This document shows, piece by piece, positions 1 through 28,363 of a DNA stretch of 64,000 nucleotides. Source of the stretch: Ophiosphaerella korrae (Eukaryota > Ascomycota > Dothideomycetes > Pleosporales > Phaeosphaeriaceae). Position numbers and translations under genes: made by a program. Numbering within the stretch: position 1 is the stretch's first letter; each line of letters opens with the position of its first letter. The stretch spans positions 186,001 to 250,000 of the forward strand of contig JALNQF010000029.1 of the NCBI GenBank assembly GCA_028456385.1, read 5' to 3'. Below the pieces are notes generated by a model. That model searched no databases. It saw nothing but the letters and a program-made list of their open reading frames with translations, and had not been told where the DNA came from.

Positions 1-194
1 CGCAGGTCCCAAGCTCTATCCTAGGAGTGCCCCGGAACCAGGCACACATGCTGCGGAAGCCGGGCCTAAAGAAACACATGATGCTACCAGGTAGTGGTGG
101 ACAGAAGAAGTAAGAAACGCAAAACGCTACATGGAACAAAAGATCAAGCCCTGGAGTTCCTAAAAGCGAAGACAATAAGATGCATTGACGCCGG

Positions 195-1482
195 TCAGTT
201 TTCAAGCAAATCAAACCACTCCGGAATATCCTGGATGAGATTCCACATGTGCTTCTCCAGCTCAGCTGCGCACTTGGAATAGACCGTTGTTGCATCGTTA
301 TACTTTTGACAATTACTGAAAACCAACTTAAGGTCATTGACAAGGCCCCCTGGGGAATTATAAAAATCTTGTTCCAATCTCTCTTCCATAGTGGTCAAAT
401 CCATTGGCGATGTAACGACATTGCAATAATCAGGGATTTCGTCTCTGTCGACTGGTTTGACAAAAGGCCGCGCTTGTTTGTAGCTTTGGATTTGATATAA
501 GAAAAGTCTGAGGACGTTGAAGTGGCGTCTTCGCCGTGGCTCTCGTGCTATCTCGTCCATTTTTGGAGACCAGCCAGTTTCCCGAATAGCTAGGATAGAG
601 TAGGGGTCAATTAGAGTGACAATGCCGTTGGCCCATTGTTTTGGGGGTTGGTGGATGACATGACTTTTGCTCAAATTACAAATTTGAGCTAGTACAGTTT
701 CCTTCTGCTTCTGAAGCATACGACCAACTTCAAGATAGCGTATTTGGGGAAGCATAATATATTGCATAAGTGTCCCTCCTTCGTAGTCTTTAATATAACC
801 CATCCATTCGGACTTTGGGAGAGTAATCTCTTTGGTAAAACCCCGTTTTTGGAAATACCCCGTGGCGAAATTGTCAGTGTAAGTCAGAAAGTGCACCACT
901 GGGGAAGTAGCTCGAACGTAATCCTTTAAGTGGGCCATGAGATGTGCCCCGTATCCTTTCACCTGTTGATCAGATGATACCGCCAAAAAGACAATCTCAG
1001 CGAACTTGTGGTTCCGGAACTCTCGGAACGATATTCCGCCAATGACCTCCAGAGGATGTTTATGGCCATAGATAAATGAGTGCGATCATAGACAAGACGT
1101 GCGATATAATCCTTAGGCATGTTCGGAAGCTGCTTTTGAAATAAGTTCTTCAAACCCATGAGGATAATAGTACTTTCTCTGCTGCCATTATTATTGACAA
1201 CCCGGAATTCGATTTCACTATTTCGTTGTTCTAAAACTGCAGGCTTTAGAAGAGTTAGAAAAATTTGCCGAAATCTTAAAGTCACTAGCATACCTTCTCA
1301 GGGAAAGGAACCCCCTTAGTTGCGTTTGGAGGCTGAATATCCGATTCGGTCAACCCATCATCACAGCCTTCAACTCTCTTTGCCTTGGGGGTAGTGTCCG
1401 GTTCCTCGGATAATGTGCGCTTCTTGCTAGGAAGATTTTGCTCGGAAATGCCTGAGACTGTGTTCGTATCTTCTTTATCCAT
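195..1482 (-). pseudogene. GCN5-like histone acetyltransferase with bromodomain, frameshifted
   Basis: Exon 1 is 1482-1294 and exon 2 is 1243-195; the 50-bp intron (GTATGC...TAAAG) joins PFPEK to [16 protein letters not shown] in frame. The order is GCN5-typical: N-terminal tail, GNAT acetyltransferase core with FAEIVF (catalytic Glu region) and the acetyl-CoA loop QVKGYGAHL, then a C-terminal bromodomain with [16 protein letters not shown] and the acetyl-lysine Asn region KYND. In SAGA, GCN5 acetylates histone H3 tails. The reading frame breaks near 1062: the upstream frame reads HLSMAI and the downstream frame resumes at KHPLEVIGG. No intron can explain a shift this small; four lost bases, or one base plus a codon, would restore family alignment. 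The bromodomain and linker are more divergent than usual for GCN5, so this looks like a second, decaying paralogue, although a sequencing error is possible. Confidence 0.75.
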
Positions 1483-21910: not shown

Positions 21911-24900
21911 ATGGCATCTCCACCATTTTACAATTGCGATTCTCAAAGTTCAGGGTGTACTGGAGATACTGAACCGGTGTGGTACTGTGTTGATTGCCAA
22001 AGCTCGCTCTGTGAGCCATGCTGGGCACAATTACTCCCACATGCCGGCGGAAGAACAGGCCGCGATGGGCCGCACGAGAAAGTCAAGTATCCAATTTACA
22101 TGAAGCTCAAGGATATACTAGAGCCGAGCTACAATGAAGGTGATCTGGAAGACCTTCACCGACGCGATTTAGATACTACTTGGTTTGGTATGCGATGAAA
22201 CAAGTCTTAATTGTTCTTTGCACAAGATAGCTAATCAATTTTCCAAGGTATCCGAAGAGACAATACGGGCCAACCGCTACTTGCTGACTACGATGCGTAT
22301 TCCGCTTTGTTAGGCAGTCCGCTGAGCAACGGTAAAGAAAAATATCCACAGCTAGTTTCATTCATCGGCCAAACCAGTTAGACTCATCCCCATGGTAGTT
22401 TGTATCTTGCCTTCTGACTACGAGCTAGATGCCGGAAAAAGCACATTGATTAAGATGCTCATTGAGCTTCATGAACAGAATGAAGTCAGGAATGAATCAC
22501 CATTCCCGTCACCTATTGTTGGCTTGCCACACTTGGAGAGGCAAAGTAGATTTGAAGAGAATACCCGTATTCCAATGGAACATATTCCAACATCTGCCGA
22601 TGTTCATCTCTATGCAGATCCCGTGCGGTTCAGGAAACGGACCCCATTGCTCTATGCCGACTGTGAAGGGCTTGCAGGTGGCGAAAATCTTCCAGTTGGG
22701 GCACAGGAAAATCGCACCTCGTTATTTACAACAGAATCCTCCATCGCAAGGCTAACACCAGGGCGTCTACGACCGTTAGCTTGGGCTGATACAGAGAAAA
22801 AGAAGACGAGAGGATTCTTCGTGAGGCAAATGTATCCTCGTATTCTCTACACACTCTCAGATGTGGTCGTGTTCGTCGTCCCGGACGCAAATTCAAAGTA
22901 TGAGCATTACAATTCTGCATCGAACTTTAGCTAACCTAAAGCCAGAACATTTGAAGTCACTACGTTACGTCCGTTACTTGAATGGGCCGATACATCTCTG
23001 GAGACATCCATCAACCAGCCAACTCTTCCTCATGCCATCATTGCCCTGAACGGATCCGATCCAAGCATCCCTATAGATGCATGGGATAGCGATTCCGCCA
23101 CATGGAGTTTACTAGAAGCTAACAAACACTGTATTGAGCGAAGACGTGGCCATCACTACTTCACTAACCTTGTTGATGAGTGGGAAGCGAAGGGAAAACG
23201 TATCAACACTGTCCTTGATCTGATACATTGCTATTATTCTACATTCAAAGTTATCCGCATACCACGGAAAGGCAGATATCAGCTCTTGCATAACCAAATA
23301 GGAGCCCTACACGGAATGATTACCACCTCTTGCGGATCCTCCTTCAACTCTAAACGGCAGGCGAACATGCTCTCGAAATCGCATGAATTGCACGTGTACT
23401 TCCAATCCGCTTTCGATCATTTCGCAAATTATCTCGATAGACCGTTCAACTTTATCGCAGTCTCATTACTGAATAATCCAATTCCCAATGATTTTGGAGG
23501 TCACATCCTTCAGCTTGCCATCACTATCCAGGCTCGGGATCGAGAACGCCAACCATCGTGGATATTCGACCAATTATTAAGACTAGTTGCATCTAGCGTA
23601 TTACTGGATTGTGTACGCCATCGTAAAGGTATGAAGCTTGATATTTCGTTCTGCGACTCTAAATAGCGTTAGGTTCACCCGAAGATTTGTTTGTGCATTA
23701 CGAACACTATTGCGGCTATGCAATTGAGCAGTTTTGGCACCGAAGCGCTCCTTGTGAATTTCGCACTGGTCAGAACCAGTGCGTCAATGTTGCTTCTAAC
23801 CACAATCCAAAAGGACATCAGAATGCGAAAGGCAAGATTATAGCGGCTGGCACATTTATTTCGAGCTTTGATCCTGTGGAATACTGCCCTCGATGGAGAG
23901 ACAGAATAAAGAAGGCAATAAAAACCATATATTTGGATTTGCAGAGAGCTTCTCGTGGATCATTAGAATCATCGACAGAAAATTGCCTCCTCAGGATCCA
24001 CAGCAACATCATGCATCGTTTCTACATAGTTATTGGTCCGGCGGGCCATTTTCTGAGTCATTCGACATGCTTCTGTTGTTTGATGCAATCTCCCCAACAC
24101 GTACTCCGTTGTGGCCGTGAGTAGCCTCTTTCCTCGAGTTATCAAGACGTAAACTAACAAGTTATTGTTTGGTAGATGTACTATGTACGCAGTGCGTTCG
24201 AGCATATGGCAAATCAGTCAACAGGAATACCGACAGCAAGAACGTCCTCAGTCTCAGCTGTTGCCCACTGCATCCAGCTGAGACACAATGGCGAGCTCCC
24301 TGTATCATCAGATTCAAGCCAGACCAGGCTGGTGTCCGGCTCTTGTGCCTCGATGGGTAAGTGGGAATACTGGGAGTGAGCGACCACCTCTATAAAAAAC
24401 CACAACTGCTGCCGACTAGATTGATGCATTCAACCCAGTGTCAAAAGTTATATCAGCGGTCTCCGGCTACTTAAATGCTGGCCAGATTGTCAACTAAAAT
24501 CATTTCCATGTCTAGCCAACTTCCTCAGGCTTACAATCTAGCTTAATATCTCTAACATCTTAATAGGGGCGGTATGCGAGGGATTGTCGAATTGGAGGTG
24601 CTCCGAGCCATACAAAATCAAATTGGTAACCGCGTTCCTGTACAGGCCTTTTTTGATCTCATAGTCGGAACAAGGTAAGCTGTTCACTCCACAGAATGTT
24701 AACTCACTGACTATGTAAAGTACTGGAGGGATAATTGCTCTCGCATTTGGTGTTAAAAATTGGAGCATAAGGCGCTGCATTGACAAATTCAGGAAGCTCT
24801 GTGGAGCAGCATTTACACCAAGGCTAATGCAAGCTATTCCTATCCTCAAGTATGTCATTGCACTTAAGCTTGCGTCAAGGTACCAAACGAGTCCATTGAG

Positions 24901-27617
24901 GAAAGCGCTCAAATCAACACTTGGAGATCAACCTCTCTTCGGAAACAACGGTAGACGCCGTGCAAATCATAGTGCTAAAATTGCGGTGACGGCAACCGAC
25001 CAAGCCGGTACAAGAGCAATTATCATCGCCAATTATAGTCGGAAGGATGGGAATTCGATCGAACAGCGGCCAGGTGAATACGAGTTTCTACGGCCAGATG
25101 GTCCAGATCAAGAACTTTCGGTACGTGACCTAATAAAGAATCAGACTAAGACAAACCTCTCTCCCATATATAAAATATATTCCCCAAAGGCCTTTAAACT
25201 ATGGTTCAAACTAAAGTCACTGACAATATTGGATCTAGGTGTGGGAGGCAGCAGCAGCTACTTCCGCAGCTCCGTCTTACTTCAGGCCTTTTGAACATGC
25301 AACAACGAAACGTACATATCTAGACGGTGCTATCTACCACAACAACCCTATACGATTGGTGCATCGTGAAAGGAAACTACTATGGCCAGATGTTGCGCAC
25401 AGAGATCCCGATATCCTTTTGTCTATTGGTACGAGCCAGAATAGATCGAGTTTATTCAAAAGCCTCTCCAGTGAAAGTTCACCTGCTCGCCAAAATTCTG
25501 GGTTCGTAAATTACACAGGTGAGATGGGGCTTGGTTCGTTGACATTGTGTTCTAGGTCAGCCCTGGCAAAACATGGAAGCTCAACAAGGCCGCGAATCAG
25601 AGCCTTTCCAAATATGCGACAAATGTTTACCACAATGGTATGATATTTATCTAAAACTCTTCCTCACACGACACGTACATTTAGGGAGCGCTGATACAAG
25701 TTCTAGCAAAACCGAGTTGACAATATATTGGATGCCGAGCTCGCATGGAGGGATTTTTGTAAAGACGTTACCAACGTTGATAGTACCAATGGCGAAATTT
25801 CACGCTACGTTCGCATCAACCCGGACATTGGGCGCGACCCACCTAGTTTAGACGACATAGGCAAGTTCAGGCGTTTACAACAAGATGTACGGAGGGAACT
25901 AAGGTCAGCGGATAATAGAGCTCAAACCGCAAGGGTGGCACACATGCTTATCGCGAGCTCCTTTTACTATGAACGCATAGGCAACCCTAAACCTAACGCT
26001 GACGGGACACTCACATGTACTGGTAAGCTCAAGCTCTCCGTAGCTAAAAGTTTTCACTATTTGCTGACCTAAGTAGGTCAAATCTGTTGCAGGTTTGAAG
26101 ACGGTTCGCCCTATCTTCGTGGACTCGGCGAGTTCTTCATGAACCAACAGACTAGTAGCTTTCGACCCTATTTTGAAATTGAGAATGGCTCAGGTGGCAT
26201 GAGTACTGTTACGGTAAGTCATCATCCCTTGCTTAGAGACCAGCCTTATCGTCGAAAAGGATTGTCATGGCCATTTAGCCGTTTGACTCGAGTCATAGTT
26301 TTTATGGAGAGAAAGGAGAGTGCAATATGGTCGCACTAACATCAATTCATCAGAGCTCGCTAGATGCATCTAGTATGATGGAGACAGCCTCATTTCAAAT
26401 AGCTACACCTAACATTCGCACGCAAAAGAAGGATGAAGTAGTCACAGTGACACTACATCTCCGCAGCCACAATTTGCCACCATCAAAATACGATATTAGC
26501 GGATTTCCAAGGGTGATCATGGAAGATATTCAGGCCAAGAGCAAGTGATCTGGTTTGAATTCACGGCACATGGACTAACCGTATCTTAGCTTATATGAAG
26601 GAGACATCGGCTATCCTAACGAGCCCAACCTGGGAAGCGGAAGAATTACCAACCCTGAGTAATGTCCACGAGTTGGATGGAACAACTTCGCCCTCTATAC
26701 CCTCTAACCGTACTGTGTCTGAACATATACCCCGAATCGCAAGATCCAATGTTGATGATCGGCCAAGAAGAAGCTCCACGGGTACTTCAACTCAGATTGG
26801 CGTACACAAAGTGTCTAATTCTTCTGTGGGGCAATCAACTAAATCTAGGTTGTCTAATCGGAATCAATTTGATGCTGGACAGTCCAAACGTGCATCGGGT
26901 CTTGTGTCAGCACTCTCAGACGAGCCCAGCAGCACTGCATCGCCAGCAACAAATGGGTCGTTACTACACCATTCGAGAAGCCCATCATACCCCTCAAATT
27001 CCATGACATCAAATACTCGCAAGGCAGCGGAAGATGACAATTTACAGAAACCCTGGGCGTCGCTCACAGCAATTGAAGATAGCCCGGTCTCCGCGAGTCA
27101 CGGTTCAACCCAAGGTACTGATCACAGCTCAAACTTTGGGACAAGCTCATATGCATCCCCTACTCGTGTATCCGATCAAACAAATGCGCTAGGTTCACAA
27201 GGTTTAACCGCTGGCACCCCCCCTAACCGAACCAACAATATACTTGCATCTGGAACTCAAACTTCCATAGATTCGGAACAGAGAAGAGCAACCCCAATCA
27301 GCCACGCAGCCGAACAACGTGGTCGCATATTGCCACTCGCTTCCCATTATGGCACTCTTCCGTCCTTAAACCAACGCCTTCACGCCATGCCTTCAGATGT
27401 GTCTATGATGTCTGAAGCGCAGACGGTTGATACCAGTTCTACTTTATCAACAACTCCTGATCACTTTGAAACGCGTCCTATTCGAAGGGGTTTGAGACGG
27501 AGTCAGGGACTGCATGTCCGGCGCATACTCTCCGCTGCAACATTCAGTGATGTTGACGATGGGCAGAGTGAGATATCAGAGGCCTCTCAACTTGGGCGTA
27601 GGGCCGGGTGGTATTAG
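21911..27617 (+). CDS. B-box-like zinc finger / P-loop GTPase-like / RING-like / patatin phospholipase fusion protein
   Basis: Fourteen exons: 21911-22187, 22248-22376, 22429-22897, 22946-23628, 23673-24116, 24176-24356, 24567-24674, 24721-25120, 25239-25637, 25707-26022, 26077-26213, 26354-26544, 26590-26658 and 26744-27617 (4,677 nt; 1,558 residues). All are GT-AG and in phase. Domains: a B-box-like finger (C9, C16, C26, C29, C34, C37, H44, H55); a P-loop GQTNAGKST (133-141) with a Walker-B-like YADCEGL (D213, G216) and hydrophobic strand SDVVVFVVPD; a RING-like finger C652/C655, C666-G-H668, C671, C674, C696/C697; then patatin with oxyanion motif DGGGMRG (727-733), nucleophile motif GTSTGG (Ser764) and catalytic LDGA (Asp926). 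The last ~290 residues are Ser/Thr-rich and disordered. Patatins hydrolyse acyl lipids. Related multi-domain proteins are often annotated 'FabD/lysophospholipase-like' in fungi; the biological role is unknown and a sensor/effector function is my inference. Confidence 0.88.
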
Positions 27618-28363
27618 CTGGGGCTTGGAAAGACATGGCCTGTAGTATAGACAAGTGTGATTTTGCAATATTTCTCAAAGCTGGTCGCTCTTCGTGTTCG
27701 AGATACGATGAACAATACAATTTTCGTACTTGATTTAACTTGACTGAAAACAGGTCGTGGGTTTAGCAGAGCACGGAACTCTTTCGTGAGTTAATCAACT
27801 AGGAAAGTGTATCGAATCTTACGATAATATCAATAACCAGTCTTTTTCGCCTTTTTTGAAGTTTGTTACACCGGATGGAATAATCCACTATGCAATAGAG
27901 TACAACTTCTACGCGATAATTACATAGTCAAGCTTCGCGTCTATGTGATTTTATTTTATTTTTTCAAAAAAGGACCATCAAGTATAACTACATAGTACAA
28001 CCAATATATCAGAATCTTTAGCTCTGTTAAGAATTTCAGTGATAATTTTGCCTTCACACCTTCTGAAGTCAGGTAGCATGACGAGGCTCCGCGGATCGCT
28101 CTATCTGTGGTCAAGCAATCAAGGGCTGCCACAGACTTCGCTCGTCACCGCCCTTTGCAACGAACGCCTTATTGCCGATCCAAAGCCGGGGTAGCGATGG
28201 AACTAAACTGTTCTTTTCGCGACTACAGAAGCTTGTCATACGTCTAACATGTCAGCAAAACTCAATTCTCTCAAAGTTTCGCATGTGCTTTAATTGTTCT
28301 ACTCTTTGATTTATTTTGTTCGCGCTACCATTTGCGATAACCAATTTTCTCTGCAATGACGAC
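27618..28363. other. AT-rich intergenic region
   Basis: These 746 bp between two plus-strand genes are visibly AT-rich (especially 27840-28040, with T/A runs at 27950-27970). They should contain the terminator of the patatin gene and the promoter of the transporter. No gene is seen. Confidence 0.5.

Follow-up and report, generated by a model that had tools for sequence, protein, structure and literature searches.

A candidate GTPase-controlled patatin lipase with two finger-like domains in the ascomycete Ophiosphaerella korrae

Gene structure and domain arrangement

A 64,000-nucleotide stretch of the Ophiosphaerella korrae genome (assembly GCA_028456385.1, contig JALNQF010000029.1, positions 186,001 to 250,000 of the forward strand; referred to as the window) was analyzed, and contains what looks like, judging from sequence comparison, one real fungal gene with all of its domains on one protein. 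The gene runs on the + strand from an ATG at 21911 to a stop codon ending at 27617, and its 14 spliced exons formed a single open frame of 1,592 amino acids. This agreed with an earlier note made from the letters of this DNA, as did the positions of the P-loop and of the patatin motifs (Table 1). The order of domains in the chain was finger, GTPase, RING-like, and patatin; patatin (PF01734; 84.7 bits against a cut-off of 27.7) was the sole domain above the curated Pfam cut-off.

Table 1. Features of the gene in window coordinates; residues refer to the 14-exon model.
Feature	Residues	Position	Strand	Comment
Exons 1-7		21911-22187, 22248-22376, 22429-22897, 22946-23628, 23673-24116, 24176-24356, 24567-24674	+	junctions compared with P0001-P0007
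Exons 8-14		24721-25120, 25239-25501, 25556-25637, 25707-26022, 26077-26213, 26279-26540, 26590-27617	+	junctions compared with P0001-P0007
B-box-like zinc finger	9-55	21935..22075	+	Pfam zf-B_box below cut-off; ligands C16 to H55 conserved
GBP/atlastin-like GTPase domain (model-based)	~88-450	22172..23420	+	limits carried over by eye from the P0003 model
P-loop GQTNAGKST	133-141	22367..22445	+	split by intron 22377-22428
Switch II motif DCEG	213-216	22659..22670	+	D213, E215, G216 conserved
G4-position motif NGSD	327-330	23049..23060	+	N conserved
RING-like finger	652-700	24068..24273	+	split by intron 24117-24175
Patatin lipase domain	724-937	24343..25358	+	Pfam PF01734
Patatin motif DGGGMRG	727-733			
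Patatin motif GTSTGG (Ser764)	762-767			Ser764 codon interrupted by intron 24675-24720
Patatin motif LDGA (Asp926)	925-928	Asp926, 25323-25325		
Conserved C-terminal region	~1040-1245	25788..26524	+	ends near ISGFPR; a similar region closes the sister family
Ser/Thr-rich tail	~1253-1592	26590..27617	+	S 18%, T 10% of 340 residues; matches P0002

The exons were placed by hand from splice signals and then corrected against predicted homologues (P0001-P0007). Of the 13 introns, 12 were GT-AG and one (26541-26589; donor GCAAGT) was GC-AG. The 54-nucleotide intron at 25502-25555, which has a weak donor (GTTCGT), and the acceptor at 23672 were both kept after the homologue comparison; the junction at the intron 26214-26278 is unsure, about 22 window residues there being absent from the homologues displayed. 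An intron at 25519-25555 was rejected because it broke the frame, and a 13-exon model of 1,612 amino acids was dropped because two of its junctions were disfavoured by the comparison with P0001-P0007. That model served as the query in the homologue search, the genome tblastn, the tree, and the first Pfam scan; its numbering is shifted by +2 past residue 520 and by +20 past about residue 990. When the C-terminal 362-residue piece was compared with P0002, residues 2-89, across the GC-AG junction, matched at 40% identity over 88 residues (E 1e-7), and residues 256-361 matched the end of P0002 at 54% over 106 residues (E 4e-19). Since the sequence flanking and following the GC-AG intron thus matches in two stretches, this intron and the coding tail are very likely real. 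The tail had been noted as Ser/Thr-rich and coding, which held, and as 290 residues long, which fell short of its approximately 340.

Conservation and predicted folds of the domains

Of 7,840 candidate proteins, the homologue search retained 384 at E <= 0.001, and the best 120 of these were listed. The nearest among the matches listed was a partial protein from Ophiobolus disseminans (80% identity over 88% of the query, and 83% over 1,020 tree columns). The recognised organisms among them, all of which we take to be filamentous ascomycetes, had one exception: P0016, filed under Quercus suber, is a fungal-type member of the family and probably reflects fungal contamination of the plant assembly. 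The annotations of the relatives were generic (FabD/lysophospholipase-like; calcium-independent phospholipase A2-gamma). No functional study of this family was found in the open-access literature; the earlier note likewise knew of no described mechanism for related fungal proteins. Motif conservation was assessed in 53 aligned rows, consisting of the window protein and 52 relatives hand-picked from the 120 matches listed.

G133, G138, K139, and S140 of the P-loop, as well as D213, E215, and G216 of switch II, were identical in 53/53 rows, and the P-loop and DxEG patterns were each found in 119 of the 120 matches. DxEG at switch II and RD at G4 are both features of the GBP/atlastin group. The former was present in every row, whereas the G4 place was occupied by NxxD (N327-G-S-D330 in the window protein; N in 53/53 rows, with D in 35 and E in 11 at the last position), and therefore the protein was not filed as a GBP or an atlastin. 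Fold searches with Foldseek and VIA-align were run on models of the relatives P0126 and P0003, the G domains of which had an overall GBP/atlastin-type nucleotide-switch fold; the nearest GTPase group was GBP/atlastin/RNF112/SMG9, with identities of 9-15% in those rows. These models support the assignment of the same fold to the corresponding region of the window protein. The earlier note had made its proposal depend on a nucleotide-binding fold near residue 135, and it was a fold of this type that the two models predicted. GIMAP7 (3zjc) also appeared in the Foldseek list (E 1e-4, rank 48), and septins and dynamins were not among the Foldseek rows displayed, which excludes neither. Repeat proteins (Cake), which came first in the profile search of PDB, were rejected as chance matches.

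In the B-box-like finger (zf-B_box: E 0.0085, 16.7 bits against a cut-off of 24.1), each ligand from C16 to H55 was kept in 48-52 of the 53 rows; a strict finger pattern, matching 56 of the 120 listed proteins, was judged too strict for this reason. Of the eight Cys/His residues first noticed at 9-55, only C9 did not hold, aligning with Cys in 3/53 rows; two N-terminal Cys were 90% conserved among the 52 relatives, so that the spacing of the N-terminal Cys differs in the window protein. The second finger, first noted at 652-697, was found with ligands extending to H700 (C652, C655, C666, H668, C671, C674, C697, and H700; C3HC3H), in a number and spacing suitable for a RING cross-brace. Seven of them, together with a Pro after the seventh, were present in 53/53 rows and H700 in 48/53, and the pattern was found in 119 of the 120 matches. 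It is called RING-like because the RING models of Pfam all scored below cut-off (zf-RING_UBOX: 14.2 bits against 25.2). The TRIM order is RING, B-box, and coiled coil, which differs from the order found here. The most likely role of both fingers is to bind partners or the protein itself, or to attach ubiquitin to them.

The GGGxRG motif and the catalytic Asp of patatin were identical in 53/53 rows (GGGxRG in 118 of the 120 matches), and Ser764 was found in 46/53 rows with Gly in the remaining seven. The window gene itself keeps, by sequence, an intact Ser764-Asp926 dyad. Foldseek searches with the patatin domain gave CapV as the best match (E 5e-13), followed by patatin, iPLA2-beta, and CapE, and VIA-align scored plant patatin and iPLA2-beta at 29 and CapV at 28, in line with the CapV-type effectors with which the earlier note had compared it.

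Relatives with altered lipase or GTPase motifs

A FastTree phylogeny of 123 rows was prepared from 119 of the 120 matches (those longer than 1,000 amino acids; P0028, with 918, was left out), the window protein, and three sister-family rows. Long-branch warnings were given, the trait column was retained, and near-copies from metagenomes inflate the row counts. Gly at the nucleophile position was concentrated in one branch (60 of 61 Gly rows; SH-like local support 100), the other row being P0106 from Geoglossum. This clade (including P0016, P0018, P0042, and P0044) mostly has GTGTGG, and its P-loop and DCEGF were intact in 60/60 rows; it is probably a conserved lipase-dead clade. Outside it, 60 of 61 scored rows had Ser, the window included.

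A sister family (L041, L043, and P0241-P0294; 60 matches among 7,997 candidates scored), found with the own-genome gene L041, mostly consists of proteins of approximately 930-1,000 amino acids with a GTPase-like region, then RING, and then patatin. Its G-domain and RING region aligned with that of the window family at an hhalign probability of 100 (E 5.6e-44), and its profile matched the RING of BIRC7 at E 0.009 and TRIM RINGs at E 0.08-0.96. The nucleophile column was Ser in 19/19 aligned members (the GxSxG of P0242 is disturbed), and neither a GKS/T P-loop nor DxEG was seen by eye in any of the 19. That one activity can be lost throughout a clade while the rest is kept speaks for a separate role of each domain, and with the Ser-less clade and the sister family the contribution of either activity could be tested by comparing natural variants. 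P0280 from Pyrenophora tritici-repentis joins ferric-reductase-type domains to a sister-family patatin, being either a fusion or joined gene models.

In the O. korrae genome itself, tblastn pieces of a second copy on contig C2 covered residues 16-1290 at 31-42% identity, and contig C24 (L039 4530-5118) carried an eroded, incomplete copy of the region with the finger and the P-loop, in which pieces are missing and a stop interrupts the frame. RING-patatin genes lay on contigs C35, C556, and C13, those on C35 and C556 having a GTPase-like region without a P-loop. Near one sister-family gene (L043 6324-8019, - strand), tetratricopeptide-like repeat frames resembled by eye the repeat part of an NLR. 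Some other species also hold more than one copy; three of the 120 rows listed, for example, came from Polyplosphaeria fusca. Additional C-terminal domains were labelled by precomputed Pfam in five of the 120: SPRY (P0039, P0099, P0102, and P0110), ankyrin (also in P0039 and P0110), and SH3 (P0106); those of P0039, P0106, and P0110 were confirmed by a Pfam scan. These domains lie after the lipase, the C-terminal part being swapped between lineages. PF28431, a precomputed label on many relatives, gave no row in the Pfam scan. Ten stand-alone finger/GTPase proteins were read. Two of them, P0138 and P0162, stop at the LDG/GG exon junction and so resemble truncated gene models, and three others (P0127, P0134, and P0144) are shorter still.

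A putative switch-controlled lipase and its alternatives

We know of no GBP or atlastin fused to a lipase, unlike the protein described here, which also differs from the GBP/atlastin/RNF112/SMG9 group in its P-loop (GQTxAGKS) and in having NxxD where GBP and atlastin have RD; RNF112 of animals carries a RING besides its GBP-like GTPase. CapV and CapE of CBASS are bacterial lipases activated by cyclic nucleotides, whereas in this protein the lipase follows a GTPase and two fingers within the same chain. The ankyrin repeats of iPLA2-beta (PLA2G6) are likewise replaced by the GTPase and fingers. Patatin NLRs of the PLP-1 type also combine a patatin effector and an NTPase switch in one fungal protein, but with an NB-ARC/NACHT switch and the lipase first, in contrast to a GBP-like switch with the lipase after it. 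Cell death by PLP-1 needs the activity of its patatin as well as the nucleotide motif of its NB-ARC (PMC12881547). No NB-ARC or NACHT was found in the window protein by Pfam at E <= 1 (NB-ARC was weak in 4/43 relatives, best E 0.027), and no C-terminal repeat family at the same threshold in its 13-exon version. Fungal immunity is mainly described through NLR-type STAND proteins, and the authors of one study excluded from the NLRs an orthogroup that matched MMR_HSR1, Septin, AIG1, and Dynamin_N (PMC12258605). In two Podospora studies, 6/9 patatin genes rise in incompatibility (PMC3689799), and 5/9 non-NLR patatin genes rise with either bacterium and 3/9 in incompatibility (PMC4835503). No description of a GBP-like switch, RING-like and B-box-like fingers, and patatin in one chain was recognised in the open-access literature; patatin joined to an NTPase switch is itself already known.

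A lipase under the control of a switch is something for which the window protein makes a good candidate. That it is, more specifically, an intracellular patatin phospholipase controlled in cis by its GBP/atlastin-like GTPase is, on motifs and models, a proposition we regard as evenly poised, and it is preferred because it uses all of the conserved parts. G domains of GBPs and atlastins pair or oligomerise upon GTP loading, and the filaments of CapV/CapE with bound cyclic nucleotide are thought to make the lipase active. Similarly, GTP loading would assemble the G domains, this assembly would activate the lipase domains by clustering them, and the activated lipase would cut membrane phospholipids; the fingers, as partner or ubiquitin modules, would most likely determine how readily the active state is reached or how long it lasts. 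The trigger class, which is the weakest step, would most likely be non-self, infection, or membrane damage, an immune role being suggested by analogy with PLP-1 and CapV and by the rise of Podospora patatin genes as a class. If true, a widespread family, with relatives in many filamentous fungi, in which a GBP/atlastin-like GTPase is coupled to a CapV-like lipase would represent a second switch-plus-lipase design in fungi and would bear on the biology of animal GBPs, on the lipases of bacterial defence, and on cell death in fungi.

Several observations weigh against GTP control of the lipase. TM-scores of the G domain in Foldseek were low (0.21-0.41 of the query and 0.25-0.57 of the target; 50 rows), and good superposition was limited to the G domain proper: helices were predicted past it, but alignments reaching there mostly had root-mean-square deviations of approximately 5-20 A. 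Sequence profiles yielded only P-loop-sized matches (PDB; Pfam on 43 relatives), apart from smg-9 at E 0.023 with the alignment profile against PDB, and GTP-driven pairing itself is drawn from analogy only. The nucleophile was Gly in 61 and Ser in 60 of the 121 scored tree rows (two unscored); the Gly clade, with intact GTPase motifs, implies that lipase catalysis is dispensable for some functions of the family, and the sister family, retaining Ser without a working P-loop, that a lipase can persist without a switch. The neighbouring genes scanned are ordinary: at E <= 0.001, Pfam assigned a family to 15 of the 20 frames and none to the other five. From the sensor/effector interpretation of the earlier note, the single protein, switch fold, patatin dyad, and RING ligands stand, but the Gly rows and such neighbours speak against a simple effector.

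Among the alternatives, a minor possibility is a housekeeping remodeller of membranes or lipids, an iPLA2-like enzyme linked to a GTPase at the endoplasmic reticulum or lipid droplets (atlastin/Sey1-like) with no immune part; multiple copies in some species, an eroded copy in the same genome, and swapped C-terminal modules would be less usual for such an enzyme, and the fingers would be left unexplained. We consider it decidedly unlikely that the protein acts chiefly as a ubiquitin ligase or scaffold under GTP regulation, in which the patatin fold binds or senses and catalysis is secondary: the intact GTPase motifs of the Gly clade, the near-universal RING pattern, and RNF112, which joins a RING to a GBP-like GTPase matched here by fold, favour it, but the window gene has Ser, as do nearly all rows outside that clade, and the RING scores lie below the Pfam cut-offs with His as the last ligand in most rows. 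An artefact, namely two adjacent genes read as one, a frameshift, or a decayed gene, is highly improbable; the gene is long, its 13 short introns were placed by hand, and the homologues are likewise gene predictions, but these homologues span all of the domains, the tail matches P0002, and the frame lacks a stop. The GTP-switched phospholipase may also be extended to a fungal cell-autonomous defence family, in which a GBP-like GTPase replaces the STAND switch and GTP-driven assembly activates a RING-controlled lipase. Its network would comprise three kinds of members (both enzymes intact; lipase dead and GTPase intact; GTPase dead and lipase intact), the dead ones either sensing, acting as decoys, or regulating the intact ones; this extension is speculative and rather unlikely.

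Around the gene, 27 frames of at least 230 amino acids were listed, and no CBASS partner cyclase gene was among the 20 of them that were scanned. The families of these 20 included EH domain, MMU163, ING, DEDDh exonuclease, HCO3 transporter, D123, chorismate-binding/GATase, MFS, TRAPP subunits, RTA1, and aspartyl protease. A 5S rRNA gene lies at 2488-2607 on the - strand (77.5 bits). The GC content across the gene (22001-28000) was 45.5-45.8%, which ranks with the lowest values in the window when it is divided into 32 two-kilobase segments (others 45.5-63.9%).

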